Of a DNA stretch of 64,000 nucleotides, positions 43,440 to 64,000 are shown in pieces. The stretch's first letter is position 1. The number at the start of each line of letters is the position of its first letter. The notes under the pieces are model-generated. The model was not told the origin of the DNA. It saw only the letters and a program-made list of their open reading frames with translations, and did no database searches. Location: contig JAGUCH010000006.1 of NCBI GenBank assembly GCA_019096065.1, positions 950,001 to 1,014,000 of the forward strand, read 5' to 3'. The DNA comes from Paracyclopina nana (Eukaryota > Arthropoda > Copepoda > Cyclopoida > Cyclopettidae). The position numbers and the translations under genes were made by a program.

Positions 43440-44380
43440 TGTTTACATACATAATGATGAGAAAATGGCGATAATTTTTTTCTTTGTGGGGAAAAAGTTG
43501 TAACAATGCAAGGTCGTGTTTCAACATCAGCAGATATTGATTGAGCATTTTTTCATGCAAAATCAGCGCGTGGGTTTCCATGTGGGAAATACTGGAATTT
43601 GTCGTTCATGCATTTTTCTGAGTTGGTGCCGGCCTCGGGGCCATGTTTACAGCCGAAATTTGGCTATGAATGGGAAATAGGTGTCAATTTCATATGCCAT
43701 AATTTTTAGGCCTCACGCAACAGCAATCTGTAGTTGGCAACGGAAGCAACCTAGTCTACCCCACTAACCAAAATATTCGTAGTTAATCCCCGCTAACTCC
43801 AGTTGGAAATTCAATCGTGTCCAAATTGGTTAATTTTGACATACATCAATTCGTCTATGTCCATAGAGTACTCACATGTTATTTTTTTTGCTCTATCATA
43901 ATTAGTCTTTAAGATATTGAAATTTAAAATATTCAAATTGGCGACAAATTGGCGTACTCGAAGTCTTAAAAAAATTTTACTTAATCTTTAATTTTTTAAT
44001 TGTTATGAACTTTTCAGCTAATAATTCTGTCATTCATCATAATTTTTTTTTTAAAAACCTAAAAATCAATGTTACTATTTTTGGTATATTTAGTCGCAAT
44101 AAATGCAATTAAATTGCGATAAAATTGGCATTATTTTTTGTCACTATCAATATGCATCCATTTTACTTGAAATTGTTTAAAAGAAATGTATATTAACGCC
44201 AATTAGTTTACATTTTTAATTGTGAATTTTTTATCATTTCAATAACTTATTATTTTTACGTTTTTGTCAATTTTATCCCCACTAAATCCCTATTCTTTGG
44301 ATTTCATAGACTCCTATTTTTTTAGGACTGTCCTATTTGTCTGACTAAAAAAATATTCCGGTTTATTTCACAATTCTCCC
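43440..44380. other. AT-rich intergenic DNA before the 171-bp array
   Basis: No coding frame, RNA gene or clear repeat unit. The last 110 bp carry words like CACTAAATCCCTATT and TTTTTTTAGG that may be a decayed margin of the tandem array or of the transposon block to its right. Confidence 0.4.
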
Positions 44381-45690
44381 AATTTCGTAGGCACCTATTT
44401 TATCTGGACTTTGCCGCTTTTGCCAATAGCAAATCTGTCCCAACTCAATCGCCGCCATTTACTATTAGTGCCATTGCCCAATAGTCAATTGGCCAGATTG
44501 TCAAGTATAAAAAAACTGTACACTTTTTCCCAGCTAACTCCCCGTACTCCCAATTTCGTAGGCACCTATTTTATCTGGACTTTGCCACTTTTGCCAATAG
44601 CAAATCTGTCCCAACTCAATCGCCACCATTTACTATTAGTGCCATTGCCCAACAGTCAATTGGCCAGATTGTCAAGTATAAAAAAACTGTACACTTTTTC
44701 CCAGCTAACTCCCCGTACTCCCAATTTCGTAGGCACCTATTTTATCTGGACTTTGCCACTTTTGCCAATAGCAAATCTGTCCCAACTCAATCGCCACCAT
44801 TTACTATTAGTGCCATTGCCCAACAGTCAATTGGCCAGATTGTCAAGTATAAAAAAACTGTACACTTTTTCCCAGCTAACTCCCCGTACTCCCAATTTCG
44901 TAGGCACCTATTTTATCTGGACTTTGCCGCTTTTGCCAATAGCAAATCTGTCCCAACTCAATCGCCACCATTTACTATTAGTGCCATTGCCCAACAGTCA
45001 ATTGGCCAGATTGTCAAGTATAAAAAAACTGTACACTTTTTCCCAGCTAACTCCCCGTACTCCCAATTTCGTAGGCACCTATTTTATCTGGACTTTGCCG
45101 CTTTTGCCAATAGCAAATCTGTCCCAACTCAATCGCCACCATTTACTATTAGTGCCATTGCCCAACAGTCAATTGGCCAGATTGTCAAGTATAAAAAAAC
45201 TGTACACTTTTTCCCAGCTAACTCCCCGTTCTCCCAATTTCGTAGGCACCTATTTTATCTGGACTTTGCCACTTTTGCCAATAGCAAATCTGTCCCAACT
45301 CAATCGCCACCATTTACTATTAGTGCCATTGCCCAACAGTCAATTGGCCAGATTGTCAAGTATAAAAAAACTGTACACTTTTTCCCAGCTAACTCCCCGT
45401 TCTCCCAATTTCGTAGGCACCTATTTTATCTGGACTTTGCCACTTTTGCCAATAGCAAATCTGTCCCAACTCAATCGCCACCATTTACTATTAGTGCCAT
45501 TGCCCAACAGTCAATTGGCCAGATTGTCAAGTATAAAAAAACTGTACACTTTTTCCCAGCTAACTCCCCGTACTCCCAATTTCGTAGGCACCTATTTTAT
45601 CTGGACTTTGCCACTTTTGCCAATAGCAAATCTGTCCCAATTCAATCGCCACCATTTACTATTAGTGCCATTGCCCAATAGCCAATTGGC
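44381..45690 (+). repeat. 171-bp tandem array, about 7.7 copies, with one continuous open frame
   Basis: The unit starts AATTTCGTAGGCACCTATTT at 44381, 44552, 44723, 44894, 45065, 45236, 45407 and 45578, an exact 171-bp period. Copies are almost identical. I noted only five variable sites (such as GCCGCT/GCCACT, CAATAG/CAACAG, CCGTAC/CCGTTC). As 171 is divisible by 3 and one frame lacks stops, a 432-codon frame (44411-45709) crosses the array with a 57-residue peptide period. The peptide has no recognisable domain, no good start context and no intron/exon support, so I treat it as satellite-like. Confidence 0.95.
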
Positions 45691-45887
45691 CAGAATGAAA
45701 TTAGTGTAGCAGTTTCTTTTTGCTTACGCGTCAAGATTTGAACTTGTTTCCAATATTTGTTGAAATGCTTACGTTTCAAAATTGAAACTTGTTTCCAATA
45801 TTTGTGTATAACTTGTTATAGACAATACCTAACCTCAATTGGCCCATTCTTATGTGAACACAGTAAGAGTGTGGTCATTTGAACAAA

Positions 45888-46135
45888 ATGGATCCAAATG
45901 ATCGTAATAACGCATTTATGCTTTTTGCCGAAAATGTGCAGTTACGAATTGCGCAGCATTTAGCTAACCGACGTTTAAGGTATGTAAATTGTCAAAATTT
46001 GAATTCAAATTGATTTTAAATACTTTTTTTAATTATAGGGCTGCACAATTAAAGAATGAAGAAGTCAAAAGAAATATTCAATCTGTCAATTCTGAAATTG
46101 AAGCTTTGAATAACAGAGGAGACAATGTTGATTGA
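45888..46135 (+). CDS. Small two-exon gene, 62-residue helical protein
   Basis: Exon 1 is 45888-45979, ending before GTATGT. Exon 2 is 46039-46135 after TTATAG. The AG|G junction keeps the frame and gives 62 residues. The protein is charged and predicted helical (starts MDPNDRNNAFMLF; later EEVKRNIQSVNSEIEALNN, a short coiled coil), with no membrane segment. AATAAA follows 38 bases after the stop (46173-46178). It lies between the 171-bp array and the inverted repeats beside the transposase, pointing towards it. I infer it may be an accessory gene of the same transposon. No known homologue is recognised, and a short gene like this could be spurious. Confidence 0.5.
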
Positions 46136-46199
46136 GTTTAATTGAATTGATTTTCATTTCAATTTACGATTCAATAAACAATTTCGTAGCATTATGAAA

Positions 46200-47155
46200 A
46201 GTTACATGCTGGCATCAGCCGCGGTCAATGCTGAAAATCTCCTTCAGCCGTGGGCTTCTTTGCTGCAGCATCTCATATGCAGTCAACAGGAGGTCTGATG
46301 GCAGCAGTCATTAGTGGCATCAGCCGCGGTCAATGCTGAAAATTTCCTTCAACCGTGGGCTTCTTTGCTGCAGCGATCATCAGCGGCTTCAACCGGTCAA
46401 TGCTGAAAATTTCCTTCAACCGTCTGATGGAGGTCTGATGGCAGCAGTCATTAGTGGCATCAGCCGCGGTCAATGCTGAAAATTTCCTTCAACCGTTGGC
46501 TTCTTTGTGGCAGCGATCATCAGCGGCTTCAACCGGTCAATGCTGAATATCAGCAGCACATCATTTGTTGCCATCTAAATTAAAATTTAATTACAATCAA
46601 TTTTAAAAAATTGTAACATTTCTGTAACATACCATGCAGGTCAATGCTGAATATCTCCTCTTCAACAGGTGACATTGCCTCTGGTCAGGTTAGTTGGCAG
46701 CGTTCAACATTGCCATCAGCCACGGTCAATGCTGAAAATCTCCTTCAGCCGTGGGCTTCTTTGCTGCAGCGATCATCAGCGGCTTCAACCGGTCAATGCT
46801 GAATATCAGCAGCACATCATTTGTTGCCATCTAAATTAAAATTTAATTACAATCAATTTTAAAAAATTGTAACATTTCTGTGACATACCATGCAGGTCAA
46901 TGCTGAATATCTCCTCTTCAACAGGTGACATTGCCTCTGGTCAGGTTAGTTGGCAGCGTTCAACATTGCCATCAGCCGCGGTCAATGCTGAAAATCTCCT
47001 TCAGCCGTGGGCTTCTTTGCTGCAGCGATCATCAGCGGCTTCAACCGGTCAATGCTGAATATCAGCAGCACATCATTTGTTGCCATCTAAATTAAAATTT
47101 AATTACAATCAATTTTAAAAAATTGTAACATTTCTGTGACATACCATGCAGGTCA
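46200..47155 (+). repeat. 256-bp tandem repeats rich in GGTCAATGCTGAA
   Basis: The marker TCATTTGTTGCCATC occurs at 46561, 46817 and 47073, an exact 256-bp spacing. Each unit holds GGTCAATGCTGAA two to three times, CAGCGATCATCAGCGGCTTC, and an AT-rich hairpin around TTAAAATTTAATTAC. The left margin (46200-46550) has extra partial units. The motif recurs in reverse orientation at 47350-47551, so the block resembles the subterminal repeats that CACTA-type transposases bind. Confidence 0.9.
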
Positions 47156-47349
47156 ATTTCGTCGAATGTTAAGCCAAAATTTCCACAAGTGTTCGTACTC
47201 CAGTCCATGATGTAATTCATTCTTCGATCGTTGATTCAAAGTAAAAAGCAATTCAACCAATATTAATTGATTAGAAGTCCGTTGTGATCCGTTGGCTTGT
47301 AATGAAATTGTCATCGTCGAATTGCATCCGCAAAAGCTTCTTGTTCGTG

Positions 47350-47551
47350 TTGTTGGATTTGACGAAAAGGAGATATTCAGCATTGACCGGCAAGGTTGTT
47401 GGATTTGACGAAAAAGAGATATTCAGCATTGACCGGCAAGGTTGTAGGTTATGACGAAAAGGAAATTTTCAGCATTGACCGGCAATGTTGTTGGATTCGA
47501 CGAAAAGGAGATATTCAGCATTGACCGGCTGAAGCCGCTGATGATCGCTGT
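47350..47551 (-). repeat. 46-bp tandem repeats carrying TTCAGCATTGACCGG (inverse of the 256-bp block)
   Basis: Four 46-bp units begin TTGTTGGATTTGACGAAAAG at 47350, 47396, 47442 and 47488. Each has TTCAGCATTGACCGG, the reverse complement of CCGGTCAATGCTGAA in the 256-bp units. The last one continues into CTGAAGCCGCTGATGATCGC, the complement of the block at about 46371-46405. The region is therefore half of an inverted repeat about 1.2 kb across. Confidence 0.9.
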
Positions 47552-47887
47552 TGACTGCATAGGAGATGCAGCGGCGTGGTGAATCTTCAAGGCCACGAAT
47601 CACAGGCTTCTTTTTAATTGCCAGATCGATGTTCTTACAACAACCAGATGATACGCCAACAGATTTCTCATTTATGTTAGTCCTTGTATTGTGCCACGCG
47701 TAGTTGTTTACTTTGCTGGTTCGGCAAATAACCTCGATCTGTATTCTTTCTGGCTAATAACAACAATTATAAGGCAATTTTATTATTTTCTTTGTTTCAA
47801 TCAATTACTAAAATGAAAAGTACCACTGCATTAACAGTTGATAATAAATTTTATTCGAATTCATTTTCAGGAATTGCAATAACATAT

Positions 47888-48163
47888 TTATTTCTCTTCA
47901 TCACTATCCGTGACATAAACGATGGCTTTCTTCTTTGTTTCATACTTACTACGAACGCTGTTCTGCATTCGATAATAGTTTGTTATTGGCTCATCGTCCC
48001 ACTGTCTTTGAGGAGTTTCATCCATCGTTGTCGTTGTTGTTGGAGGAATAAACTTCTTTGCCGGAATGACATATCCAATTTTTGATTCAGCATTGCCAGC
48101 TAGTTTATTTAACTTGTATGTCAGTAACTTTCGCTTTTGTTCTTTATCTTCAACGTGATCCAT
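47888..48163 (-). CDS. 91-residue charged ORF beside the transposase
   Basis: An ATG at 48163 opens 91 codons ending at 47888. The protein is rich in Lys and Glu, has a PTTTTT stretch and ends in the acidic TDSDEEK; no membrane segment or known domain. The frame is open upstream to an acceptor TTTTTTCAG at 48222-48230, so it may be the last exon of a longer or alternatively spliced transposase transcript, or a downstream cistron of it. It is the second small frame in the block besides the gene at 45888. Function unknown. Confidence 0.4.
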   Translation of the reverse strand: MDHVEDKEQKRKLLTYKLNKLAGNAESKIGYVIPAKKFIPPTTTTTMDETPQRQWDDEPITNYYRMQNSVRSKYETKKKAIVYVTDSDEEK

Positions 48164-48286
48164 TTTATGTAAACAAATATGCGTACTGATTGGACGAATA
48201 CAGTTCAATTTTAGGTACAATCTGAAAAAACAAGTTAATTTTTGGTGAAACAAATAATCCATTTTAAGGCTTAATAGCATTTTTAT

Positions 48287-51007
48287 TTATACAAACAAGC
48301 TCGAGAAGGATATAGAGTACAGTAAATCATTCACCAAAACTCCTTTACATTTAACGGTGTTCTTTTTGACAGACACAAGAGGATCACAAACAATAATTTT
48401 CACAAACTTTCTTAGCATTATTGCGTCATAATTGAGTTCAGGTGTCTCATCATCAATGAATTTTTCCGTCTTAATTTTGTGACACATAAAGCTTTCTCCA
48501 TCATCTTCAATAACTTGATAGAATATTAAGTCAGACGCCAAAATAATGGTATCATTTGCATTCTTCTTGGATGATTTACTTGTGACGCGTATTATTCTTG
48601 AACAGTAATGTTTTTGCATAGTTAGAATGTTTGCTTTGTTTATAACTTGCTTACCATATGACTAAAAAAAAAGTTTCAATAAATGTGTGAAAATTGTGAC
48701 ATAATTGATACCTGGGTATTATTTTTCAGAAATCTTTTTAAGTAACCATAATTGTTTTCGAATCTCTCTGCGGATATGTCGTCGAATTGATGATCCTCAC
48801 GAACAAGGAATACATGGCTGAACGCATGAAGATTGTAGCTGCACTTTCTTTCTCCAAATAGATCTGACCACATCTTATAGAATATGTCCATAATATCCTC
48901 GAGAGGTAGATACGTTTTCTCACGGCAAAAATCTAACATCTGGTTGTCAAGAAGCACAGCTTTACAAAGAAATCCAAAAAATTTGAATATTCTTCTTATG
49001 GGTTTTTGAGATATTGAGCCATTATTTGTAGCAACGTCAACAAATGACTCTGCAAAATGGAAGAAGGCGCAACAGGTAATTGTAACAAATTCTTCTGACT
49101 TCAAGTGTGCAAATGAACGAATAAGATCTCTGGGCTTCCTTGAATATTCCGATGGCAATTGAATTTTAATCCAAATTTTGTCGAATCTAAAATATTGACT
49201 CTTAGTTTAATAATAACAAATATGGTTAGATGTATACCTATTTAATATTGAAATTACTCTCTGTGGGAATGCCTTAGCTTTGCCAGATATTCCTAGCATC
49301 AATTTAATAAGACATTTTGCTTGGCCTAAAAATAAATTGTGCATTGGCTCAACTGGAAAATCTCTAACAATATCGAAATGTGGCAGTCTCAGAAATGGTG
49401 ACGATCCATGAATTCCTAATTTAGTATAATCCGTCAATTCTTGCTCTGAATTTTTGATTTTATCAACAATTTTGAGCCATCCAGTGTGAGTTCTTAATTG
49501 ATACTTCTTTCGAGTTGGAGGATATGCAATGCAACCTGGTCCCAAACTAACACCAACTGCATAGCAACGTTCGCATGAGCAGTATCCACCATGACCCTTG
49601 AAACATTTTCCTGATGAACGGCATGGTGCGTCAGCAATGGCACAATGGCAAATAAATCCATCCATTAAGCCATCATACAGTATGACATCCATCAGAGTAT
49701 TGAAGTTGACTTTTGAATTTGATCTATAAATTAAATTACAATTAATGTGTTGTTTTAATAATAAAGAGCATACTATACCTGTATTTGTGTAGTCCAATGT
49801 TGTACACCAACTTGCATCCATGAAATCTCACACAAAGTACTGTTGCTTTGTCGATACCTGATTCTGTGACTGGCACACCATCAAAGGACACATCATATCT
49901 CACATTGAAAATACTTCCAATGTCAATTGTGAGTCCATGATTCTTGGCATGGAACACATAAAGTTCAGACATTTTGAATTTTGTCCATTCAGACACGACT
50001 TCGTAGTCAATTGAAGGGTACTTTTTGCGAGAAAACTTTGTTTGATTTTCCAAATTAATGTAATCACCGTTTGATTTTTTGACTATTTGATAATCAATTT
50101 TAGGTTGCGGAATTGTTTCATAAAATTTTCGCTTTATAGTAGAAAATGACTTCATTCTTGGATATTTGTGTGATATAGCGGCACATAGGAGATTCCACAT
50201 AGCCTTTGCAGAAGTTTCGGACATCATCAATTCAGTATAGGTCATGATAAAGTTGTCAGCAATGTATTCACGTGCATTCTCATCGTGCATGTCATTTGCA
50301 GCTTCAAAAATATCCATAAACTTGTCAACTGAGTAATTTACTTTCAATTTATGCTTTGAGGTGTCTAGAAACATGTATCGACCATCAGCAGTGTAGTGAC
50401 CATCTTTCATGCCATATCCAGATTCATGTGAACAATTAATGATCTATGTAATCATAAATGGTTACTAATAATCAAGTTTATGAAATGTCTCTCTACCTCA
50501 CGATAATCATCACTGAATTCACTATCAATATTATTAGCATTCTCAAGATTTTGTTGTTCAATATCTTGAATGCAATTACTTCGTTCATCATTGTCGACTG
50601 ATTCCATATCAGAAGACTCCTGTTATGAATCAACAAAATATAAAATTGGTCAATAAAAACAAACAATTATATACCAATTCTTGATTGTTGTCATCTGTTG
50701 CATTTGCAATTGCTGGACGTTTTCGCTTTAAAAGATCTGAAAGCCTCAAGTTATCATTGCCTCTTTTTCGATTCACCGACGTAGATGGGAAGGTAGCAAT
50801 TTCTGCTGCCACAATTGGTTGTTGCTCACGTTCGCCATCAATACTTGTGTCCCTATTTTCACCTTCAACTTGTGTATCAGAATCACTTAATTCAATTTCC
50901 AATTGGCGATATATCAAGTCTCTCTTCCTTTGACGGTATCTTAAACTTCTTTCCGCTGCTACCAATGGGTTTCTTTTACTTTCCATGTTGTTGTTAAAAA
51001 TTCTCAT
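48287..51007 (-). CDS. CACTA/EnSpm-type (tnp2-like) transposase, six exons, uninterrupted
   Basis: Exons read leftwards: 51007-50675, 50619-50497, 50443-49779, 49723-49238, 49186-48712 and 48661-48287. All GT-AG, frame kept, 818 residues; M8 (50986) is an alternative start. Residues 1-150 are basic then acidic and presumably bind DNA. A Cys/His cluster (about 399-426, CHC...C...C...CSCERC) looks zinc-binding. The hallmark DFPVEPMHNLFLG is at about 495-507. LPSEYSRKPRDL and NLHAFSHVF follow in the order seen in tnp2-like animal transposases. It would cut and paste the surrounding element. I did not locate the catalytic acidic residues. An alternative last intron (donor TTT|GTATAA at 48290, acceptor 48222) would replace the last residue with a short tail ending YLFT. 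The element's terminal inverted repeats were not found. Confidence 0.85.
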
Positions 51008-51284
51008 AAAAAATTAATTGAGTTAACTGAGCATCATGAGATTATCGAACTCGCAAAGTTTCCGTATCAATAATCACTCAACCTTACACAAAATTGGTTT
51101 TTTGACAAAGATTAGCTGTACATTGTAAGACAATCTCAGTGTTATGTAATGAGAAGTTCATTTCGACAATTGCAATTTCTATCTCGTTTGAGCATTTACA
51201 TCAAACAAGAACATATACAAACGAAAGATTGTATGAATTCGTTACTGTAGATTTCATATATATGCAATTTTTTAATTAAGTCAT

Positions 51285-51323
51285 TAACCTAACCTAACCT
51301 AACCTAACCTAACCTAACCTAAA
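51285..51323 (-). repeat. Interstitial arthropod telomeric repeat (TTAGG)n
   Basis: About 7.5 perfect CCTAA units on the plus strand, equal to TTAGG on the minus strand. It lies about 280 bp upstream of the transposase start. TTAGG is the canonical telomere unit of most arthropods, and so is one of the best taxon markers in the window. It may mark a past telomere repair event or the margin of the CACTA block. Confidence 0.9.
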
Positions 51324-51589
51324 GCCGATTTAACGCGCACTAGAAAATCCGCCAAATCGCCCGAATTCTAATTTAACCATCAATTTACAACTTTTAATTG
51401 GGTTGACTTCTAGGCAATGAGTCAATCAGATCCCATATAATGATTATTCATCAAAATTGGCTTCGGAAATTTGCGGACTTGGGAGCCCGGAATGTTAGTT
51501 TTTAGCTTACGGCCCTATGACAATTGACTCCTACGATTTCGCGAGTTTTTTTCCTGTGCGCGTCCAGAAGGCATTTTGAGCCAATGTGC

Positions 51590-52070
51590 TAGTGATGGAA
51601 CGAGTTTCAGCTTGGCTTGAAAGCTTGAAGCTGAAACCCAGCTTGAGCTACATAAGCAAAAAGCTTGGGATCGCTCGAACCAAATTTTGAAAAGCTTGAA
51701 AAAGCTTGAAGCCCAAAAATGCAAAGCTTGAAAAAGCTTGAGACCGAAAAATTTCAAAACTTTATCTATTTTTAATCAAAACAAAAAAGGGCTGATTTTA
51801 AAATTAACAAATACTTGAAGGAGTGAAGTACTTAAGTCAAAGTTAAAGACATTTCTGTCATTTTTTGCGCTTTTTGGGTAATTTTGTCAAATCTGGTGAC
51901 TTTTATGATAAAATACTAAAAAAGTGAGAAGCTTGAAAAAAGCTTGAAATGTGAAATTTTGAGCTTGAAAAAGCTTGATAATAATTTTCAAAAGCTTGGG
52001 ATCGCTCGAACGCTTTTCAAAAAGCTTGAAGCTTGATCAAGCTGAAATTTTCCGGCTCGTTCCATCACTA
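51590..52070. mobile_element. hAT-type MITE with perfect 8-bp target duplication
   Basis: CAATGTGC flanks the element on both sides (51582-51589, 52071-52078). The ends TAGTGATGGAACGAG and CTCGTTCCATCACTA are perfect 15-bp inverted repeats. An 8-bp duplication and a YAGTGATGG start are standard for hAT elements. The 481-bp body has no real ORF and is dominated by AAGCTTGAA/TTCAAGCTT words. It sits between the transposase and gene A of the paralogue array, about 410 bp upstream of the gene A start. Confidence 0.92.
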
Positions 52071-52282
52071 CAATGTGCATTGACTACTTTGTGCACTGCA
52101 AATGTTATTTTTCATATTTTGCTATGTAACAAATTTAATACGTACCCAATATTTATATTTCCATAATACATGATTTTGTAATATTTTTAAAGCTTAACAT
52201 TTGTCCTTATTATTTTGTTTTTTAATTTAAAATAATTTAAAAAATTAATTTACAGTGTATAGAATTGGTTGGCGAAGTATGA

Positions 52283-52368
52283 CGTGCCAGTACTTCTTCC
52301 GTTTTTTGAGCGCGCCCTCGCTCCAAGCCAAAATGCAGACGCCAAAAATGCGTGCCGGTACTACTTCC
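52283..52368 (+). promoter_or_regulatory. Upstream motif pair of gene A
   Basis: CGTGCCAGTACTTCTTCC at 52283-52300 and CGTGCCGGTACTACTTCC at 52351-52368 differ at three of 18 positions. The second is 117 bases before the gene A start. A near-identical 18-mer precedes gene C (57876-57893). The surrounding DNA is GC-richer than elsewhere in the array. I infer a shared promoter or 5'-UTR element. Confidence 0.5.
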
Positions 52369-52484
52369 TTCTCAGCATTTGCGCTAGCGCTTGCCCATTT
52401 TTCCAACCTACTGCGACCAAATAATACTGAGTTGATTGTGAGTTTCTGCTGAGCGGGAAAATTAGGCGCAATTATCAACTGACG

Positions 52485-55361
52485 ATGAAGAAAACGGACG
52501 CTCAAAAGCTGTACGAAAAAAGAAAAAAGTTTCGTGCGGATTTCAATATGGATCCACCAACGCCGATCGGGTCACGAGAGGGAAGCCCTAACAAGGAGGA
52601 CCAAATCTTCCCAATCTCAATGGGCGTTGACATCCCGGATTCCGAAGATTGGAGACGATTCCGCAAGGAAGACGCCGTCGATAGGCCTGGCCGATCTGTC
52701 TATGATCGCGTTATCGTGGTGATGCCTGAGGATTTAGATGCTGTGTCTGTATATCCAGTCGGGACACAATGCGGATACACTGGCCGATCATTCTTGGAGA
52801 TCTTTAAGTTCGAGCCCAAGGGAAAACTCACCGAGAAGCACCGGCTGAAGGAGGGCTTGATCAACATCAGCCAACGGATCAAGCGAAAGGCTTTCATCTT
52901 TTGTCGAGTCGAAGAAAGTAAGTATCTAACTATAAACTATTGACTTACAATTGCTAATTAATCCTTTATAGGTGTTCCACGTTCACGCATTGATACAATG
53001 ATCCAATTCTTGAACGAACACCTCAAGAACCTAAGCCAGGACGGAAAGATGGACATGTACAAGTTGATGGTCCACAATTACTCCGATAAATTAATGGCCG
53101 GATACACTTTTCCGTGCCGTGATGCCGATGGGGAGTTTTACTTCCATCATTTGAGCGGTCATGAGGACGAACGCGTCCAAGATGCGTTGACAACGGTAAT
53201 TGTAACATAATTGTGTTTAAATTGTAATTAACCATTATAAACTATTTTCAGGAGGGTCAAGATGATCAACGGCCATCATCATCGACCCCGCAAAAAAGGA
53301 CGACGAGAACGACGAGATCGACAAAGGGAAGCCCTCTTAAGGTGAAATTGCCGTCGCTAAGGGGAAAATCTGTCCAACCAGAACCCACGGTTGGGCCCAT
53401 TGCGGATGAGGTTGAGACTCAAGATGACTTGGAGGAAGTTATTGAGCCACCAGCGATTGACGTCAACCCTCTGGAGACTGCCGGCTTGACTCAGGATCAA
53501 CTTGACATCCTTGCTCGATCGGTCAGTGAGCAAATGCTCCCACGATTGTTGGAACGGCTTGGTCAACGGGACCAAAGACTAGTCGAGATACTGCAATACT
53601 TGAAGGATGATCTCGACAAGCTCAAAGTTGACGTAGCAACGATCATGACGAACCAGGAACGCGTGATTGAGCTCTCAATCAACGCTAACGAAAAGTGCGA
53701 CAACTTATTGAAACTCAATGAGTTGTGTGAGGGCATCCAGAAAATGACCATCTCCACAAAAGAAGCGATGACGGTAATTTGCATTAAATTGTTACCTTAT
53801 TTACCTTACATTATGAAATTTATATTACAGAAGAAGGCCAACGAGCAACAGCAAGTCTTTGTTACTTGCAAGGCCATCCTGGATAAGGTGTCAAACATTG
53901 ACCATGCACTGAAAGACATTAAGTCGACAAAGGTGGAGAGAGTCTCTCTTGCTCGGAGGCTCGTGTGCAAGTACTTGCCCGTTGACCGTGTCACTGCTGC
54001 ACACGATCTCTTTTTCGGTTGTGCAGTCATTCGTGAGGTCATGCTATCCGCAATCGTGACAGTCGTTGACACCCTGAGGCTTGAGGTATTAAGCTCGAAG
54101 ATGCCTGGGAAAATTGCCAACTTTATGTTTACACATAATGCGTTGGCCCATTTCATCTTCGGACAAAAGACAGCGTAAGTAAATTTTAAATTTAAAATTG
54201 TGACATAATTGGCATAAAATTGTGTTTTTTAATTTTTGCAGCGGCAATGTACTGAAAGTCTGGTTTAAACGCAAGTTGCCAACAGGGTCGGTGAAATTCA
54301 TCTCCGAAGTTGTGTGTGACAACCATCAACGTCGCAACCTTACCGAGCAGCAGATTCTGCATATGTCGATCACTGAGGTGAATCGAAAAGTGTCCGAGTG
54401 CCTAAGTTCGGCACGACAGCGCCTCATTAAGGAGGTTTGCAAGGTTGCACCAGATTGGGATACTGCCATCGAGGTTCTTTACGACGAGGCAATTGCTTGT
54501 TGGTCTAACAATCAGGTAACTATTTAATTAAATTACTTAATAATGCCTTTTCAACAATACTATAAACATTACAGCATGTCAATCAAGATGTCAGCATGAC
54601 TTTAGACCAATTCAAGGAGACGTACGGCCATTTGGGGGACTTGCAAGAGAAGTTCGATAGCGATCCCCTTGACACAACAATCGAAAAGGGCGATATCTTG
54701 AAGAGATTCAAAGGTGCGCACGGTACACCCTTGGATTCGGTTGAGGACGCTTGCAAGGTCATCGCAGCTGTGTGCCAAGCATTGGGACGCGATCCTCGTG
54801 ATGTCCAGTTTGACGTGATTGACGGAATTAATGATGTAAGTTAATATAACACAATTGTAACTTGAGTATTGAATGGTAATTGCTACTTTTTTAAATTTCC
54901 AGCCTCAAAGGATTTACAACTCTGTCCTTGATGGTCTGGACATTGACACGGTACTGGATGACATTCAACATGAGATCAATGTTGCCGTACCAGCGGGTGA
55001 GTCCAGTGACAGCTCGGATTCGGAGGGAACGCCCGATGCTAGTCGTAAGCAGGCAAGAGGCAGGAACAAGAGGCAGTCCACCGAATCGAAGACGACTCCA
55101 CCTTCCTCAAAACGGCCTCGTAGACAGCAGTCGGCAGCAGCTGAGAAGAAGGCTTTGCTAGAGGCAAAGAAGGCCGAGGATGCAGCGAAGAAAAAGGAGG
55201 CCATCACTCAGGGTTTGGCTAAATTGTTAGCCGAAAGAAATAAGCCATTGTCGCCAACTCCTTCTACATCATCCCGAGCCGGTAGAAGGCCATCCACCCG
55301 TTCCCAAAACCCAAGACCGACTAGGGATTCGTCTTCTGAAGCGGGTGAATTTGACGATTGA
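52485..55361 (+). CDS. Array gene A: full-length member of an unrecognised family, seven exons
   Basis: Exons: 52485-52917, 52972-53195, 53252-53773, 53831-54174, 54242-54515, 54575-54835 and 54903-55361; 838 residues with the frame kept. Module 1 (about residues 40-144) holds GVDIPDSEDW, SVYDRV, FLEIFKFEP and FIFCRVEE. Module 2 (145-219) has FLNEHLK, MYKLMV, KLMAGYTFP and FYFHHL. Residues 220-393 have a basic patch and a helical segment with QMLPRLLERL. Exons 4-5 (394-599) encode a helical region, with RLVCKYLPVDR and KVWFKRKLPTG as anchors. Exon 7 ends in an acidic/Ser then very basic tail (KRPRRQQ, coiled Ala/Lys/Glu), typical of nuclear proteins. AATAAA signals follow at 55444 and 55466. 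I know no family with this arrangement. BEN-like folding of exons 4-5 is only a guess. Intron 3 (57 bp) is also open in frame, so its retention would not stop translation. Confidence 0.85.
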
Positions 55362-55507
55362 ACGACGATTGACACAAGAAGAAATGTTTTTTGAGTAACG
55401 TTTGGCCAAGAATGCTTTTTCAAAATTTATAGTGATATGACGTAATAAAATTAGCATGTGACAAGAATAAAGATAGAATATGTATAAAATTAACTTGTTT
55501 GTTATTA

Positions 55508-55680
55508 TTCTTCGCTATTTATAATTGTTTATAAAGAAAAATCATAAAAATTTTGTTATTTTTTAAAAAATCATTCTTCTAACAAATGTGTCAATTTACT
55601 CTCAATTAACTTACAATGTTTGTTTTTTCATTGATTGAAAATTTACATATCTTTTAAATTTTGTCATTTTTAAAAAACCT
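55508..55680 (+). repeat. Left copy of a ~170-bp direct repeat flanking a minisatellite
   Basis: It begins TTCTTCGCTATTTATAATTG and repeats at 56034-56205 with only scattered changes, an offset of 526 bp. It is AT-rich and non-coding, and lies just past the gene A polyadenylation signals. Confidence 0.9.
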
Positions 55681-56033
55681 CACAATCCTCACTCGCCACA
55701 TCAGCCTCACTCGCCACATCAGCCTCTCTCGCATCATCAACCTCACAATCCTCACTCGCCTCACTCGCCACATCAACCTCACAATCCTCACTCGCCACAT
55801 CAACCTCACTCGCCACATCAGCCTCTCTCGCATCATCAACCTCACAATCCTCACTCGCCTCACTCGCCACATCAACCTCACAATCCTCACTCGCCACATC
55901 AACCTCACAATCCTCACTCGCCACATCAGCCTCACAATCCTCACTCGCCACATCAGCCTCACTCGCCTCACTCGCCTCACAATCCTCACTCGCCTCACTC
56001 GCCTCACTCGCCACATCAGCCTCACTCGCCACA
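55680..56033. repeat. CCTCACTCGCCACATCA minisatellite
   Basis: Tandem and higher-order arrangement of CCTCACAATCCTCACTCGCC, CCTCACTCGCCACATCA and CCTCTCTCGCATCATCAA segments, with a longer period of about 110-120 bp. Frames on both strands stay open for 120-129 codons because the units are multiples of three and lack stop words; the peptides are pure repeat. A shorter relative occurs at 56226-56285. Confidence 0.9.
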
Positions 56034-56205
56034 TTCTTCGCTATTTATAATTGTTTATGAAGAAAAATCATAAAAATTTTGTTATTTTTTAAAAAATCAT
56101 TCCTCTATCATATGTGTCAATTTACTCTCAATTAACTTACAATGTTTGTTTTTTCATTGATTGAAAATTTACATATCTTCTAAATTTTGTTATTTTTTAA
56201 AAAAA
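56034..56205 (+). repeat. Right copy of the ~170-bp direct repeat
   Basis: Matches 55508-55680 almost base for base (TTCTTCGCTATTTATAATTG at the start, CATTGATTGAAAATTTACAT near the end). The pair and the minisatellite between them look like a tandem duplication of a non-coding block in the gap between genes A and B. Confidence 0.9.
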
Positions 56206-56493
56206 ATTGTCTAATATTGATTTCAACCTCACAGCCTCACTCACCTCATCAACCTCACAATCCTCATCAACCTCACTTACCTCACATTTTGAGTCATTGA
56301 TAGATTATATGTTTTATTAATTCAGGTTTTGTGATTTGTTATGATATTAAATTGCGTACAGTAGGCGGCTACTTGATGCCAAAATTAATCGACTGCCCAA
56401 ATCAGCCATATCTGCCAGAAAAGAAATTCATAAATACTCAGTAACCAACTCAAATATCAGCTCAGCAGTAGTCTAGCGCTCAAACAATTCATC

Positions 56494-57624
56494 ATGGCGT
56501 CCTCATCTCGGAGACTAAGATACTTGCCTGATAAATTGGGCGTGGTCATTCCAGCAACAGAAGAAACTCGTCATCTTCAGAAATGCGAATCTGTGGAACC
56601 AACTCACCGTGGAAAGTTTGATCGCATCATCATTTTCAACCCAAGTTTGACTGAAAATGTCCTGTTTATTCAGAAGTTCGATTATTATTGTTGGATTACT
56701 GATCGCACGCTTGATGACATTTTCGATTTCAATCCGCGTGAGCATTTAAGAAACGAAAATCGGAAGCTGGCACACAATGTCTTGCACACTGGAGTCGCAA
56801 ATGACTATTTTGTATTCGCAAGAATTGACAATGGTAAGTTTAAATAGCAATCCTTTTTGAACGTACGGCTGCTATTTTTTTTTTTTGCAGCCGTGTCAAA
56901 CAGGAGAATTAGGACAATTTTGACGTTCCTCAATGCTCACTTTGATGGATGCTTTTCGGAGGCTGATCGACGAGAGATTTATGATGTCATGGTTGAAAAT
57001 TACTCGGAATCCATCCTAGCTCACTACACGTATCCGCCTCGAGACCCGTTCACAAATGACTTTCATTTTCACTATTACGAGCGAGTTAAGGCTGTGGATG
57101 TAGTCATTGATCTGACTACTGATAGCAACGTAAGACATTTTTAATTATTTAATAAATACTGTTACAATAAATGTCTTATAATTTAGGAAGAACCAATTGC
57201 GGATGAAAATCCTATCCCAGCAAGAAGCCCAGCACCAGTGGTTGAAAGTGTCAATATAGACGTACAGAAATTGAGACAACTAATATTCGATACAGTCTCA
57301 AAGCAATTGCTGCCAATGATCGATGATGCAATGCAAGTACGAGAAAGACGTTTCGAAGAATTGGTCGGTGTCATTCGTGATGACATAAAGTTGGTCAAGG
57401 AAGACATTTCTTTTGTCAAATTTGATAACTTGGAAATTCTACAAGACCAAAAAGACGCAATTCTTAGAATCACCGAGGGAATAGGAAAGCTTCAAATCCA
57501 TGTTGAAGAGAATAACAATATTCCTTTGGAAAACAAAGCCAACGACATATTGAATTGTTTTTCAAAAATTGACAAGTCATTGGGGAAAATTCAAAGTCAA
57601 TTGATGGATATGCGTAAACCTTGA
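56494..57624 (+). CDS. Array gene B: short member, three exons
   Basis: Exons: 56494-56833, 56891-57129 and 57187-57624; 338 residues, frame kept. Module 1 (residues 1-113) is the most diverged in the array but keeps VVIPATEE, KFDRIIIF, LDDIFDFNP and FVFARID. Module 2 (114-193) has FLNAHFD, YDVMVENY and HYTYPPRD then FHFHYY. Exon 3 carries the helical segment with QLLPMIDDAM and a long charged coiled-coil-like stretch, then stops. No equivalent of gene A exons 4-7. Phases match gene A (phase 1 after exon 1, phase 0 after exon 2), so it is a true paralogue. AATAAA follows at 57655. The start ATG is the first in the exon. Confidence 0.85.
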
Positions 57625-57875
57625 TATGTTGTCGTCGACTTGTCAATCCTGCTTAATAAATCTATGCAATTAGAATTCTATAAAATAATTTACAGTGTGT
57701 TGCCACTTTACTGAAAACGTTAAAAAAATCTAGTTAATAATTAATAGTATCTGTATCAAAATATAGTAATTTTTTTTATTTGTATTGTAAGTTAAATTTA
57801 TAAATTAATACATTCAAATAAAAATTATTTACAGTGTTTCAACCGCCGCTAGTTCCCGAGCGCTCACAACAAAAG

Positions 57876-57893
57876 CGTGCCGGTACAACTTCC
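57876..57893 (+). promoter_or_regulatory. Upstream motif of gene C (matches gene A)
   Basis: CGTGCCGGTACAACTTCC differs at one position from the motif at 52351-52368 and lies 128 bases before the gene C start, a spacing similar to gene A (117). Flanking words such as TCTCAGCA, GCGC and AAATACTGAG also recur in the same order, suggesting that about 130 bp of upstream DNA was duplicated or kept with the gene. Confidence 0.5.
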
Positions 57894-58020
57894 GCTAAAA
57901 TCGTCTCAGCAATATTTGTCTCACTAGCCCAAGCGCCAATAGTTAGCACGCTTAGAAATACTGAGAAAAAACAGCGTGGATAAAAGAACAACAGCCGATT
58001 TGAAATCCAAACAACGAAAA

Positions 58021-59337
58021 ATGGACAATCTCGCGATTTCAACGTTTCAAGGCCCTAGTGTGGAAGACAAAGACATCTTCCCAATCTCAATTGGCATTGA
58101 CATCCCTGATTCCGAAGACTGGACGAAATTCTCTCTGAAAGAAGCTGTTCAACGTCGAAGAGGAGCTGGCTTTGACCAAGTATTCGTGATTACTCCGGAA
58201 GACAAGTTCAAATTTACTATATTTTTGAACAATTGGAAGTCCCCAGTCAATCAAAAAACGCTTAACGAGATTTTCAATTTTGATTTGTCGAAAAAATTGA
58301 CACGGGAGCAACGTTTGAAAGAGGGCATGTTGCACATCTCGGAGGATGTCCAGCTAAAAACATTCGTTTTCTGCAGAATTGAGGATCGTGAGTTAATTGC
58401 TAAAATATTGTAGTAATTAAATTACATGCATGAATTTTTTTCAGAGATTCCTATGCCTCGTTTATTTACATTGATGTCGTTCTTCAATGATCATTTTAAA
58501 CGTGTGGATCCTGGCTCAATCATGAGCATGTACGAAAGGATGGTCAATGAGTATCCGGAGAAGTTAATGCACGAGTACACCTTCCCAAGTCGCGGCCCAG
58601 ATGGCAACTTCCACTTCCATGAGATTGATTACGTTCCAGCCAAAAGATATTATTCGGTAAAGTTACTATTAGTTACTTAAAAATGTGTGTTAATTGATTT
58701 GCGTTAAATAGGACGATGATGATGATGCATTCTCTGTACCATCAGTTGCGTCATCAAAGAGCTGTGCATCTAATGATGCACCTATCAGCAGAATAGCCAA
58801 TTCCGTCTGTGACCAATTGATGCCAAGATTGATGAGCGCAATTGACGATCAAGAAGCAAAGCACTTGAAAGTACTATCGAGCCTAAAGGATGAAATAGCG
58901 CAAATGCATTCGGACATGGTCAAGGTGCAACAACTGAATGATCATCTCAGCATTGATTTGTCTGAAATGCGTGTGTCAGAGATGTGCGAGGGGATCTCCA
59001 AGATGAAATTGTCTGTCAAAAGAGATGCCATGGTATAAATACAACTGAAACAATAGTAATCAGTGTTTATCATAGCTATTTTCAGAATTACGACAACAAG
59101 CAAGAGCAAGTTGCTTCCACATGCAACGCCATTGTCGGCAAAGTGGCAGCAATCGATCAATCAGTTAATGGCTATGTTGATTGTGGACGAAGGAAGCAAA
59201 GTCGCCAAATCAATGTGACTGGGGATTCAGCTCGTATGAAGAAGGCCGTGATTTGTCTGAAGAAACTGGAATTGCCGAAGTCAGTTATCGGAGCTGCAAA
59301 GTCTAATGTCGATGCGAAGAAATATGATTTACACTAG
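58021..59337 (+). CDS. Array gene C: short member, four exons
   Basis: Exons: 58021-58387, 58445-58656, 58712-59032 and 59086-59337; 383 residues, frame kept. Module 1 (residues 1-122) is close to gene A and D (IFPISIGIDIPDSEDW, FDQVFVITP, LNEIFNFD, FVFCRIED). Module 2 (123-193) has FFNDHFK, YERMVNEYPEKLM and YTFPSR then FHFHE. Exon 3 has an acidic start (GAC GAT GAT GAT GAT) and the helical segment QLMPRLM. Exon 4 is a short charged tail ending in YDLH; it begins at the same phase-0 intron as gene A exon 4 (KQEQV aligns with EQQQV) but does not continue into the long C-terminal region. The start ATG at 58021 is chosen because the longer frame begins with GTG. Confidence 0.85.
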
Positions 59338-59708
59338 TTATCTAGTAATCTATCGATAATCACTATGTGAAATATAGAATTCACAAATATGACTACATAT
59401 CATTAAGCATTCAATTGTTGATTAATATCACAATTTCATTTGCGTCGCAATAATTATGTTTTTTTTTAAAAAAAAAAAAAAATTTTTATCTATCAATTTT
59501 CTCTCAATAATGTCCCAATTTTTTATGTCTATTTTCTTCTTAATTGTGTTCCTTCAACATTTTTCATTTTTTTAAAAAAAATGCAACATTCTTAATATCT
59601 CAGCAAAATTGCGAGTCCTAGCGGAAAAAACGAGCACAGAAATTAATGAGAATGTTTTGATTTCAACTCATTACTAAGAGATGCCACAGAATATTTTCTG
59701 ACTGAAGA

Positions 59709-60796
59709 ATGGCTCGTTCAACAGTATTTGGTTGTGAAACGAAGAAAAACGATATTTTCCCACTATCAATTTGGGTACCAATACCAGAAAGTGAAGATTG
59801 GACAAATTTACCAATTAGCCAAGCTGTACCACTACCGAGACGATCAGTATACGATCGCATTTTTGTAGTGACTCCAGATGAGGTTACTCCTGTGGCTGTA
59901 TATCCAATATCAACTATTTGTCATTATTCTGGGAAATCATTCAGAGACATTTTTAAATTCGATCCTAGTGGAAAGCTGACAAGCAAACATCGTATGCAGG
60001 AGGGATGGATGCATATCAGTGAAAGTATTGCAAGAAGATCATTTATATTTTGTCGCATTGAAGATCGTAAGTTTTAAAACAATAGTACACTATTATTTTA
60101 CTTAAACTGTCAAATTTTCAGAGGTTCCAAAAACTCGCATATGGACAATGCTTTCGTTTCTTAACGCCCACTTCAAGTATTTCGATATATATGGAAGAAT
60201 GGCTGTGTACAACCGAATGGTCAACGAGTATCCTGACAAACTGATGCACGGTTTCACTTTCCCAAGTCGATATTTTGATGGCGAATTTTACTTCCATCCA
60301 CATCTGAATGATAAGGCAAAAACTTCGGCATCGATCAATTTAATAGAGATGAATGATATTTCATGTACGATCAGTGAGCAGTTGATGCCAAGATTGCTTG
60401 AATCCATCATTGAGCGTGAGCAGAAGTTTGTTGATGTTGCCATGTACATCAAAGATGAACTCACCACTCTTCGAGGCAATGTCCATGAGGTAAAAAGAAA
60501 CACAGACTTTGCACTGGACATATGCAACGAAATTGATGGGAAGTTTGACCGTATTGAAGAATTGACTGAATTGTGTGAGAGGATGAAAATGATGAATATT
60601 TGCACCAAAAAAGCTGTTTATGTAAGAATGCATAGTCATAGTTATAATTGTATTCTAACTTATTTCAATATTTTTCCAGAAACAAGCCAACGAAAAAGAG
60701 AAATTAGCTGCCAACACGAGAGCAATTTTTGTTAAGGCAACAAGGATCGAGGATGGCCTAAAAGTTTTACAATGTCATCCGCAAAGCCAGTCGTAA
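59709..60796 (+). CDS. Array gene D: short member, three exons, one intron lost
   Basis: Exons: 59709-60066, 60122-60621 and 60680-60796; 324 residues, frame kept. Module 1 (residues 1-119): IFPLSIWVPIPESEDW, SVYDRIFVV, FRDIFKFDP and FIFCRIED. Module 2: FLNAHFK, YNRMVNEYPDKLM and FTFPSR then FYFHP. The intron that separates exons 2 and 3 in A, B, C and E is absent: module 2 runs directly into the helical segment (QLMPRLLESI) in one 500-nt exon. The last exon aligns with the start of gene A exon 4 (KQANEK against KKANEQ) and stops after 38 codons. AATAAA follows at 60882. Confidence 0.85.
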
Positions 60797-61080
60797 TGGA
60801 AAAATTCAAAAATTGACAGTACATCGCCATCATCCAGCATGAGATACGCCGTTAGACACTTACTAATTAAAAGATATTGCAAATAAAGTAAAATTGGACA
60901 AAAATCAAATTAATACTTCATATTGTATATAAAACATAAAATTTTAGTCAATTATCTTTAAATTAACAATAAGTAATGTACAAACATTTGTTAGACTACT
61001 CATCGAATACGTCAGCACATGACAGTAAAAATCTCAGTCATCAACTCTGTTGTGGGAACCATTTTTCTACACGTGGTAAA

Positions 61081-64000
61081 ATGAAACGAGCAAAACGGAA
61101 TCAATCAATACACGAAGAATCAAATGATTCTCAAGAACAAGAGAAATTGTTAGTAATTGGTAAGGAGTTGCAAATCAATGCTGGTGTGTCAATTCAAGAT
61201 ACTGAAAGCGCAAGTAATCTTGACCCGAACGATGCAATTGATGTTCCAACCTCTGGTGGATTGTACGACCGCATTTGCCTTTTCGAACCCAGCAGGAAGA
61301 AGGACAAGTTGTTCGTTCGATATGTCAATCACCGTTGTGATGTTACCGGAAAAACATTTGCTGAAATCTTTGGTTTCAAACCAAATAAGAATTTGAAGAA
61401 CGCATCAAGACTGAAGCCGAGCCTTGTCCATAATGGCAACGATTTTTCAGCAACATATGTCTACTTTCGAATTGAAGATAGTAAGTAAATTGAAACCTAA
61501 TTTACACAAACGCATTTTCTTATTATAAATATTCGTAGAAACTACTGAGGGTCGACTGGCTAATTTGCTTGATTTCCAAAATAGCCATTTTCGCAAATGC
61601 AAAACGGTTCTGCAAATTCAGGCTATGTATTCCCAAATGGTTGCGACGTATCCTGAGAAATTGATGATGGACTACACATTCCCACCAATTGATGTGAAAA
61701 CCAATCAACATATCTATCACAATTGGTGTGGTCAAAATCTTCGTAGCAGGCCCGTGACAATGCCCATCACATCTGATAGTGACGCATGTGGAAACGCAAG
61801 CAGACTGCCATCGGTAAATAAATTTACCAAACTAATATATAAATTGTAATTTAATTTACTTTAAGTTGATTCCCACTGTTGAGGATCCGGAAGACCTATC
61901 AAACTTGCTGTCATCGCAAAAAAAAGCCAAAAAAACCTCCAAGAAACAACATCTTTCTCAAGACGCAATTGTTGCTGATCATGACGATGATCTGGATGAT
62001 GCCATTCTTACCCAAAGGTCATCAAATGTTGAGACAATGACATCGTCAAACAGCAAAAAGTCCAAAAAAAGCCTCTCCAAGAAACAACATCTTTCTCAAG
62101 ACTCCATTGTTGCTGATCATGACGATGATCTGGATGATGCCATTCTTACTCAAAGGTCATCAAATGTTGAGACAATGACATCGTCATCCCAAAAAGGAGG
62201 ATCAAAAAGGAGCAGCTCAAAGAGACGAAGCATCACGCCTGAACTAATTGTTGGAGATCGTGACGAGCTGGACGATGAGAATTATGAAATAGCAACTATT
62301 GAAGCAATCTCCAGGAAACGAGCTGCGACAAAAGATTTGATTGTTGCTGACAGTTCTGACAAATCGGATGCATCTGATAACGAGTCGGGTATTAGTGACA
62401 TTGCTCCGCCAAGGATTCGTAAGGAAAACAAAGGCAATGTTGATAATAGGAAGACATTAGCTGTAAGAAAAAGCAATGCATCTCAAGATGGATCAGACGA
62501 AGGACTTGTCTCATTACTAGTTCAGGAATTGCTGCCTAGGCTTGAAGCAAGCATGTCCAAAAAGCTAGACGAAGTCAAAAATGAACTTCTGGAGCAAATT
62601 ACAATCGGAAACGAGAGCAACAGGGAAATGAAGGATTTGTGTTCGAAAATTCATGACATGTCAATCACTTCATCAAAATGGATTAAAGCAGCGTCTAAGA
62701 GCAAACCTGTAAGGATCAATAAATAATTGTGACTATATTTAGATATATTTAATTGTATATTATTTTCAGAGACAAAACGAAGATCAAAGTGAAATTCTGA
62801 AGACGAATAAGGCAATTTTGGAGCAGACTTCGGTCATGCAACAACAAATGTCATTGCTTCGCACAATTCCTGTGGAAAAGGAATCGGTGGCAAGACAAAT
62901 TGTGATGCGTCATTTGCCAGCAGACCGATTGAACATTGGTTACGACTATTTCTTTGCATGTGATGTGGTAATGCAAGTCTTGCAAACAGCTATTGTTCCG
63001 AGAATCGACAAGATTGAATATGTCAATATGAAAAGCAAGCTTGGTGGCGTACTGAATCGTGTAATGTTTACGAACAGTGCACGAGCGCATATGATCCTTG
63101 GAGAAAAACTTACGTAAGAACCAAAACAAGTAAATTTAAATTTACTTACAATTACATCACAATTTTTTATAGCGGAACTTTGCTGAAAATTTGGTTCAAA
63201 AGAGCAATGCCATATGGATGTGTGAAAATTGCGGAAGAGGTTGTCACATCATACCTGCAAAGGCGAAAAGTCGAAGAGCCTTTTTTGCGGAAAACGTCGA
63301 TCCAAGACATCAAGTACCGCATGGGTGATGCCCTGAGTGGTGATCGCCAACGATTTGTTGATGAAATTTGCAAGAAGGCGCCATCCGGAAAGTTAGCAAT
63401 GAAGGCACTGTATCAGGAAGCACTATGGTTTTGGAAAAACAACAGAGTAAGTAAGCTAATGAATAGTTTTAAGCAATCACAGCTAATTACATGTTTTAAA
63501 GCATGCAAACAAGGATGTTTCACTGTCATACGATCAGTTCTTCCATGCGACGCAGGACATAACTGCTGTGAGGAAGAAGTTGGCAGAAGACAAAGAGGGT
63601 GACGATGACGAGGATGACGACGACATACCTGATGTGTCGACCGTTGATGATGACAAATACCACCGTTACCTCGAAAACACTCGGAAAGGAGCGGGAGATC
63701 AAGTTCATGGATTGGAAGATGCAACAAAAATCATTGCTGCTGTCTGTTTAGCATTGGACAAAAACCCAGAATCAGTCTCATTCTCATCAATTGAGGGTAT
63801 CGTGAAGGTATATCTAAAAAATTGACACATAATTGCTAGATAATTGATACATTTCCACAAAATTAGCCCAAAAAAAAATATCTTGAACAACTCGCTCAAT
63901 GTGAAGATGTAACTGAGAGTATTCGAAAATGGCGCAGCCAAGATGCAATGCGGAGTGTTATGACACCAGCAAAAGAGTCTGGCTCGGAGGATGATTTCCG
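61081..64000 (+). CDS. Array gene E: full-length member, at least seven exons, cut by the window end
   Basis: Exons: 61081-61480, 61539-61813, 61866-62708, 62770-63113, 63173-63446, 63502-63807 and 63867 to the window end; about 858 residues so far, frame kept. Module 1 is diverged (LYDRICLF, FAEIFGFKP, VYFRIED). Module 2: LDFQNSHFR, YSQMVATYPEKLMMDYTFP. Exon 3 is enlarged to 281 codons by Ser/Lys/Asp-rich low-complexity sequence with a tandem 46-codon duplication, then the helical segment ELLPRLEASM. Exons 4 and 5 are 344 and 274 nt, exactly the sizes in gene A, with equivalent anchors (QIVMRHLPADR, KIWFKRAMPYG). Exon 6 has an acidic block (DDDEDDDD) then EDATKIIAAVCLALDK, matching EDACKVIAAVCQALGR in A. 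The upstream in-frame ATG at 60976 is a possible alternative start. Confidence 0.85.
61941..62190 (+). repeat. 46-codon tandem duplication inside gene E exon 3
   Basis: AAGAAACAACATCTTTCTCA occurs at 61941 and 62079, a shift of 138 bp. About 100 bp is nearly identical, encoding the repeated acidic peptide with ADHDDDLDDAILTQRSS. Part of the linker between copies differs. The phrase IVADHDDD is echoed more weakly later in the exon as LIVGDRDELDD and LIVADSSD, suggesting an older series of repeats. Confidence 0.9.

Follow-up and report, generated by a model that had tools for sequence, protein, structure and literature searches.

The window analysed here, a stretch of 64,000 nucleotides from the copepod Paracyclopina nana, ends with an array of five multi-exon genes (A to E), which an earlier note made from the sequence alone had described as side-by-side paralogues of an unrecognised family. 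The array raises the question of what these genes are and whether they form a host gene cluster, the setting that was implicit in the note. We investigated the array itself, the DNA around it and its relatives in the genome. The positions of all features are compiled in Table 1.

Table 1. Features of the transposon and its genes in the window
Feature	Position	Strand	Remarks
Whole transposon	43759..65283 (21,525 bp), in the window 43759..64000	.	rest at L006, to L006:1283
Left terminal inverted repeat	43759..43774	+	CCCCACTAACCAAAAT
Tandem array, 171-bp units	44374..45697	+	self-BLAST, motif scan
GTCAATGCTGAAWAT region	46224..47525	.	15 copies, 11 on + and 4 on -; motif scan
Small open frame	47891..48220	-	downstream of transposase; relatives in 9 of 14 close elements, including its own and the C3 copy
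Transposase gene	48287..50986	-	six modelled exons, 811 aa, intact, CACTA/TRC-like
Partner gene A	52485..55361	+	7 exons, 838 aa; full length: N module, middle part, C-terminal domain
Partner gene B	56494..57624	+	3 exons, 338 aa; without C-terminal domain
Partner gene C	58021..59337	+	4 exons, 383 aa; A-like, without C-terminal domain
Partner gene D	59709..60796	+	3 exons, 324 aa; A-like, without C-terminal domain
Partner gene E	61081..~64351 (last 351 bases past the window, L006)	+	8 exons, 955 aa; full length
Right terminal inverted repeat	65268-65283, beyond the window end	-	CCCCACTAAACAAAAT

Structure of the five genes

The five genes are arranged head to tail on one strand, and with the splices modelled from sequence alone none of them contains an internal stop. 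A BLASTP comparison of the proteins gave matches for all ten pairs; the best stretch of each pair had an E value of at most 1.35e-20 and the weakest stretch listed one of 3.85e-13, with a query in which the last exon of E was slightly wrong. Matches of this strength demonstrate that the array is not due to chance, and the description as five paralogous genes on one strand with uninterrupted frames was confirmed. The same is true for the conservation of the intron phases. All introns are 52-67 bp long and bounded by GT..AG. Intron 1 lies in phase 1 in all five genes, and intron 2 lies in phase 0 in A, B, C and E and is missing from D. The next common intron is in phase 0 in A, C, D and E, and the subsequent one in phase 2 in A and E. 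Most of the sequence motifs quoted in the earlier note are present as well, except that IPxxEDW is not a general feature of the family (E reads IQDTESA and B reads IPATEET at this position).

The proteins A and E are composed of an N module encoded by exons 1-2, a middle part with the motif L[ML]P[RM][LI] and a C-terminal domain, which in A corresponds to exons 4-6. Judged by eye, the middle part looks coil-like. In B, C and D the N module and the middle part are retained and the C-terminal domain is gone. In gene E a block of about 50 codons (KKQHLSQD..IVADHDDDLDDAILTQRSSNVETMTSS, window 61935-62190) is repeated almost exactly in tandem.

The array lies within a transposon

A DNA search of the genome (91.95 Mb in 10 contigs; the window corresponds to C6:950001-1014000) located another such array on C3. 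When 124 kb of DNA around the window were aligned with 120 kb from C3, a common block with sharp borders became apparent, which comprises the 21,525 bp given in Table 1 and 20,977 bp on C3 (C3:11180545-11201521). The flanking DNA is unrelated, and within the block the two copies are 99.0-99.7% identical, depending on the main stretch compared. Both ends of the element show the inverted-repeat pattern CCCCACTAAMCAAAAT, with a CCC core. A genome scan with this 16-base pattern, allowing for one mismatch at most, yielded 34 + 34 matches, compared with 6 for the reversed control.

The dinucleotides flanking the element are TA/TA on C6 and CT/CT on C3. To extend this comparison, both ends were read by eye in 11 elements, namely the C6 and C3 copies and nine smaller elements. 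A 2-bp target duplication of the TRC type was found in ten of them (eight of the nine smaller ones), the exception being C4:2067388. The end scan revealed also ten end pairs spaced only 1.9-3.3 kb apart. In four short pairs that were inspected, the right-type ends agree with the right end of the large element in 39 of 40 bases, and the left-type end at C1:964950 agrees with its left end in 33 of 40. These short pairs look like internally deleted, non-autonomous derivatives.

Removal of the element together with one TA joins a host frame with MORN-like repeats (window 43600-43758 and L006:1284-2260). The joined frame matches the Pfam MORN model with an E value of 0.00098 and 19.3 bits against a cut-off of 22.5, and a stop was encountered further along the frame. 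In the C3 copy small differences break the frames of A, B, E and the transposase; the copy in the window has no such breaks. We regard the element as a recently copied, apparently autonomous animal DNA transposon of the CACTA/TRC type. What had implicitly been taken for a host gene cluster is the gene set of this transposon. The earlier note had recognised the array, and missing from it were the transposase on the opposite strand, the inverted ends of the element, its repeat arrays (44.3-47.5 kb) and its other copy in the genome.

The transposase

A search of Pfam with the 811-aa transposase of the window gave no matches at E values up to 1, and no Pfam transposase match was obtained with the relative L073 either. 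In a set of 5.77 billion proteins three homologues were found (E values of 7.6e-9, 9.3e-8 and 5.9e-6). One of the three matches Transposase_21 (PF02992, E 0.0058) and DUF4218 (E 0.002), another only DUF4218 (E 0.013), all of them under the curated cut-offs, and the remaining one shows no domain. A five-row alignment of the transposases revealed several features that are constant in all rows: the Asp in VSFDG, the Asp in IADAP, CxxC, MHxxxLG and the Glu in SAERFE. With regard to the motifs of TRC transposases, DG and CxxC were found in the protein of the window, WP is missing, and box A reads VEPMHNLFLG with Glu replacing Asp. The classification as CACTA/TRC is based on the ends, the target duplication and the homologues taken together.

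Partner genes adjoin the transposase throughout the genome

Related loci were identified by genome searches using C, the C-terminal part of A, B, the N and C parts of E and two transposases as queries. Fourteen close elements were obtained, whose transposases are 58-99% identical, depending on the match. In all 14 the transposase adjoins the partner array in opposite orientation. According to the matches, 13 of these elements have an A-type gene, 13 a B-type gene and all 14 an E-type gene. Five genes are atypical, since 11 of the 14 have just the three genes A, B and E; the two elements with five are C6 and C3:11.19, and C2:5.80 has the E-type gene alone. The genes C and D were found only in the two elements with five genes. 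A tree of the exon-1 modules places A, C and D among the A-type genes (86/88); none of its branches reaches the mark of the tool for good support, and B, C, E and L074 form long branches. From these data C and D look like extra A-like copies, found in this lineage only.

A further 25 loci contain the C-terminal domain, 24 of them at 19-34% identity and one short piece (C9:854414) at 53%; many of these distant matches are weak singly, with E values up to ~7e-4. At least 23 of the 25 possess a divergent transposase at a distance of 2.3-4.5 kb. For C9:854414 and C5:1323727 no transposase was found among the matches listed. Altogether, a partner locus divergently adjoins a transposase in at least 37 of 39 cases, a count in which near-identical copies were included separately, so that not all loci are independent. 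In 2000 random placements, with any orientation accepted, on average 1.5 and at most 7 of the 39 loci adjoined a transposase. Matches of the N module at the distant loci C6:0.44, C1:16.85 and C8:3.98 correspond to one gene per locus. One of these distant relatives, L074, was inspected by eye; its single gene shows the same order of parts, with the N module followed by a middle part that contains RLMP and then by the C-terminal domain. The distant elements seem to carry one partner gene each.

Three elements of 7.7 kb with related inverted repeats (CCCCACAAACCAAAAT) are located at C1:295946-303629, C3:4354414-4362142 and C4:1990828-1998534. The genome searches gave a transposase match in all three and a partner match in none. 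At the predicted partner site of C1:295946-303629 we read 1.4 kb and found two frames on the minus strand, as predicted, that match the exon-4 profile with E values of 8e-8 and 9.8e-5, calculated for a small frame set with the filters off. These are followed by frames which by eye resemble exons 5 and 6. The exon-1 profile reached a best E value of 1.4 in this 1.4-kb stretch, which need not include exon 1. As a partner C-terminal domain was present in an element without any partner match, the searches can miss partners and the 39 loci are a lower bound. The pairing of the partner family with the transposase is well supported.

Selection and age of the lineages

The occurrence of divergent paralogues with uninterrupted frames side by side had been taken as a hint of selection for variety. 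To compare substitutions, the A-type gene was analysed in nine elements; near-identical copies and C2:5.80 were excluded. For exon 4 the values of pN ranged from 0.021 to 0.188 and those of pS from 0.593 to 0.984, with pN far below pS in all 36 pairs. Finite dS values were obtained for 6 of the 36 pairs of exon 4 (omega 0.018-0.093) and for 21 of the 36 pairs of exon 1 (omega 0.067-0.242); the synonymous sites are near saturation, which makes single omega values rough. Exons 1 and 4 of the A-type gene are under purifying selection, and for these exons the proposed selection for variety is not supported. The A-type lineages are old and their protein was kept. In combination with the element ends and the linkage to the transposase, these values led us to reject a host gene cluster under diversifying selection.

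B-type exon-1 matches beyond the C6 and C3 copies have 34-50% identity. With matches in 13 of the 14 close elements, the B-type gene appears to be kept across elements as well. C6/C3, on the other hand, is a recent pair according to the alignment. The pairs C1:13.65/C7:2.65 and C2:4.53/C7:4.38 have equal or near-equal match scores, and C9:1.57/C9:3.35 has such scores at most matches.

Repeats and small frames of the element

The motif CCCNGCTAACT occurs in eight copies, seven within the 171-bp array and one just inside the left inverted repeat. The sequence TATTTTMTCTGGAC of this array is similar to ATTTTCTCTGGAC of the right end. Three scanned motifs, among them CCCNGCTAACT and GTCAATGCTGAAWAT, were absent from the other 102 kb; they had been picked post hoc by eye from the element. 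At the right end no repeat array was found, and a comparison of the last 800 bp with the left 4 kb gave matches of 11-16 bases only; subterminal repeats were found on the left side only. Besides the 171-bp unit the element contains GTCAATGCTGAA repeats.

The small open frame downstream of the transposase has relatives at 45-52% outside the C3 copy, and in both C9 elements these are located between A and B. It is possibly a further accessory gene or an exon. A candidate two-exon small gene (about 62 aa; window 45889-46135, plus strand) was seen in the C6 and C3 copies only.

Searches for known relatives

The partner family has no significant match in Pfam, in the sequences of the PDB or in the set of 5.77 billion proteins. 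Full-length A and a ten-row exon-4 profile gave no match in this set at E values of 0.001 or below, the content of multi-exon eukaryotic genes in the set being uncertain. These searches support the earlier statement that no described family with this arrangement is known. A known DNA-binding domain was not detected in A-E by Pfam. DUF1985 and DUF287 were not among the Pfam matches of A-E at E values up to 10, a search in which the filters drop most very weak matches. Several weak matches were taken as chance: PF13203 (E 0.069) and PF12057 (E 0.11) in A-E, PF08283 in a single row out of 13 (E 0.024), a coiled-coil model and PF18270 (both E about 0.1), and the PDB entries 1ydx (E 0.036) and 4fs7 (E 0.053). 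A likeness of the C-terminal domain to BEN domains was considered; no BEN model was among the Pfam matches of A-E or in the Pfam search that gave PF18270. In the open-licence literature covered, including PMC1636069, PMC2613891, PMC5735166 and PMC6431247, a divergent partner gene is not described for animal CACTA/TRC elements. The element itself adds a new and large member to a known superfamily.

Comparison with known systems

The transposons related to CACTA (TRC) include SmTRC1 of Schistosoma mansoni and relatives in Tribolium and Aedes. According to the accessible part of the source, animal TRC elements have inverted repeats with a CCC core and duplicate 2 bp of the target, and their transposases contain CxxC and the motif [LVI]-D-x-[LM]-H-x3-L-G (PMC1636069). 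The element of P. nana has inverted repeats starting with CCC, the 2-bp target duplication and related transposase motifs in common with them. It differs in its size of 21.5 kb, compared with about 4.5, 5.2 and 9.2 kb for TRC elements, and in its transposase, which has a motif I without WP and a box A with Glu instead of Asp. In addition, the close elements, all but C2:5.80, contain three to five divergent partner genes, and no such family is described in the accessible part of PMC1636069.

For plant CACTA elements, the portion of PMC2613891 available to us describes TNPA of Spm/En as a protein that binds subterminal repeats; together with TNPD it is absolutely required. Little sequence is common to the TNPA-like proteins of different elements. 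Like Spm/En, Tam1 and the soybean element Tgmt*, the element of P. nana would combine a transposase with a second protein that is thought to bind subterminal repeats (PMC2613891), binding by the partners being assumed here by analogy. The large size is shared with Tgmt* (20.5 kb), which in contrast generates a 3-bp instead of a 2-bp duplication; in Spm/En and Tam1 the second product is spliced from the same transcription unit, whereas here a separate, divergent gene family is present (PMC2613891). A-E show no significant sequence match to any Pfam family.

The VANDAL elements of Arabidopsis are a different element type from CACTA/TRC. Their VANC proteins resemble the partners in being accessory proteins of a DNA transposon and in the association with non-coding tandem repeats and repeated peptide blocks, as far as the accessible text of PMC5735166 goes. 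Unlike in VANC, DUF1985 and DUF287 were not found in A-E.

Possible functions of the partner proteins

We consider it probable that A-E are new, tandemly duplicated TnpA-like partners of an animal CACTA/TRC transposase and serve as accessory proteins of the 21.5-kb transposon. This interpretation is based on the ends and target duplications, the homologues and motifs of the transposase, the divergent pairing, L074, the partner in the 7.7-kb element, the low pN relative to pS, the motif arrays at the left end and the precedent of plant TNPA. The position and constancy of the partner and the presence of repeats fit such a role. The element encodes its own transposase on one strand and the partner family divergently on the other. 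The full-length proteins A and E may act like TnpA of plant Spm/En and bind the repeated motifs near the element end, multimerise via their middle part and bring the ends and the transposase together. B, C and D, which have no C-terminal domain, could join the same multimers and tune or repress the activity. Evolution of the array presumably started from one partner gene per element, proceeded to the three genes A, B and E, and in this lineage added the A-like duplicates C and D. Several results were counted against a TnpA-like role: the lack of Pfam matches for the transposase of the window and for L073, the two loci without a listed transposase, the right end without a repeat array, the lack of a known DNA-binding domain in Pfam searches of A-E, and an AlphaFold model of the five exon-1 modules that was unusable with a mean pLDDT of 40.7.

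The main rival explanation is that the partners are anti-silencing factors like VANC, which would bind tandem repeats and shield the element from host silencing and would be dispensable for cut-and-paste. The tandem repeat arrays in the non-coding parts of the element and the duplicated block of about 50 residues in E would suit this function; in the accessible part of PMC5735166 the targets of VANC are often tandem repeats and its variable regions often contain repeated peptide motifs. The near-constant pairing with the transposase is compatible with either role, but the partners have no match to DUF1985 or DUF287, and we regard the anti-silencing function as unlikely. Somewhat less doubtful, and compatible with TnpA-like partners, is that B, C and D, as short forms derived from the partner, act as repressors or regulate copy number, whichever role A and E have. 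They have the N module and the middle part without the C-terminal domain, and the B-type gene is found in nearly all close elements (13 of 14); its exon-1 identity outside C6 and C3, however, indicates that the gene was kept and does not indicate in which role.

CACTA elements can be large, and the intron-containing genes A-E resemble host genes, which would be in line with an array of captured host genes carried as passenger cargo. This we consider very improbable: in at least 37 of the 39 cases partner and transposase lie together in the same fixed arrangement, the family has highly diverged members in other elements, and a partner was predicted and found in a 7.7-kb element. Leaving aside C9:854414 and C5:1323727, which have no listed transposase, a lone host copy was not seen. 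A Polinton/Maverick or viral origin was considered and not retained: among the open frames listed for 43.8-64 kb no polymerase or capsid gene was recognised, and the target duplication measures 2 bp.

If A-E are TnpA-like partners, an apparent host gene cluster is the second half of a transposon. The annotation of this genome would then need correction at 39 or more loci, and perhaps that of related species as well. Animals would gain a two-component CACTA-type system comparable with plant Spm/En. More tentatively, and with rather more doubt than confidence, we propose that animal CACTA/TRC transposons are generally two-component systems, whose second component, the family described here, may have escaped notice, since its genes are split into several exons, diverge rapidly from element to element and resemble host genes. 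One lineage would have multiplied it to three and then five genes and would thereby carry a set of co-factors, regulators or anti-silencing proteins that match the repeat arrays of the element itself. With several recently copied lineages co-existing in one genome, the matching of partners to repeat arrays is directly testable.

Further observations

An insert of 481 bp at window 51590-52070 has the ends TAGTGATGGA and TCCATCACTA, is bordered on both sides by the 8-bp direct repeat CAATGTGC and is missing from the C3 copy. It looks like a non-autonomous element of the hAT type nested inside the transposon. At window 51285-51322 about seven TAACC units are located, and the C3 copy is longer by 25 bases here; the run resembles an interstitial telomere repeat of the arthropod type, which is only a hint of an arthropod host. 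Between A and B a minisatellite with CCTCACTCGCCACATCAACCTCACAATCC-like units extends over window 55670-56040. Outside the element, degenerate CACTTGTGAA-like repeats, both tandem and inverted, occupy about 4.7 kb (window 33221-37922).
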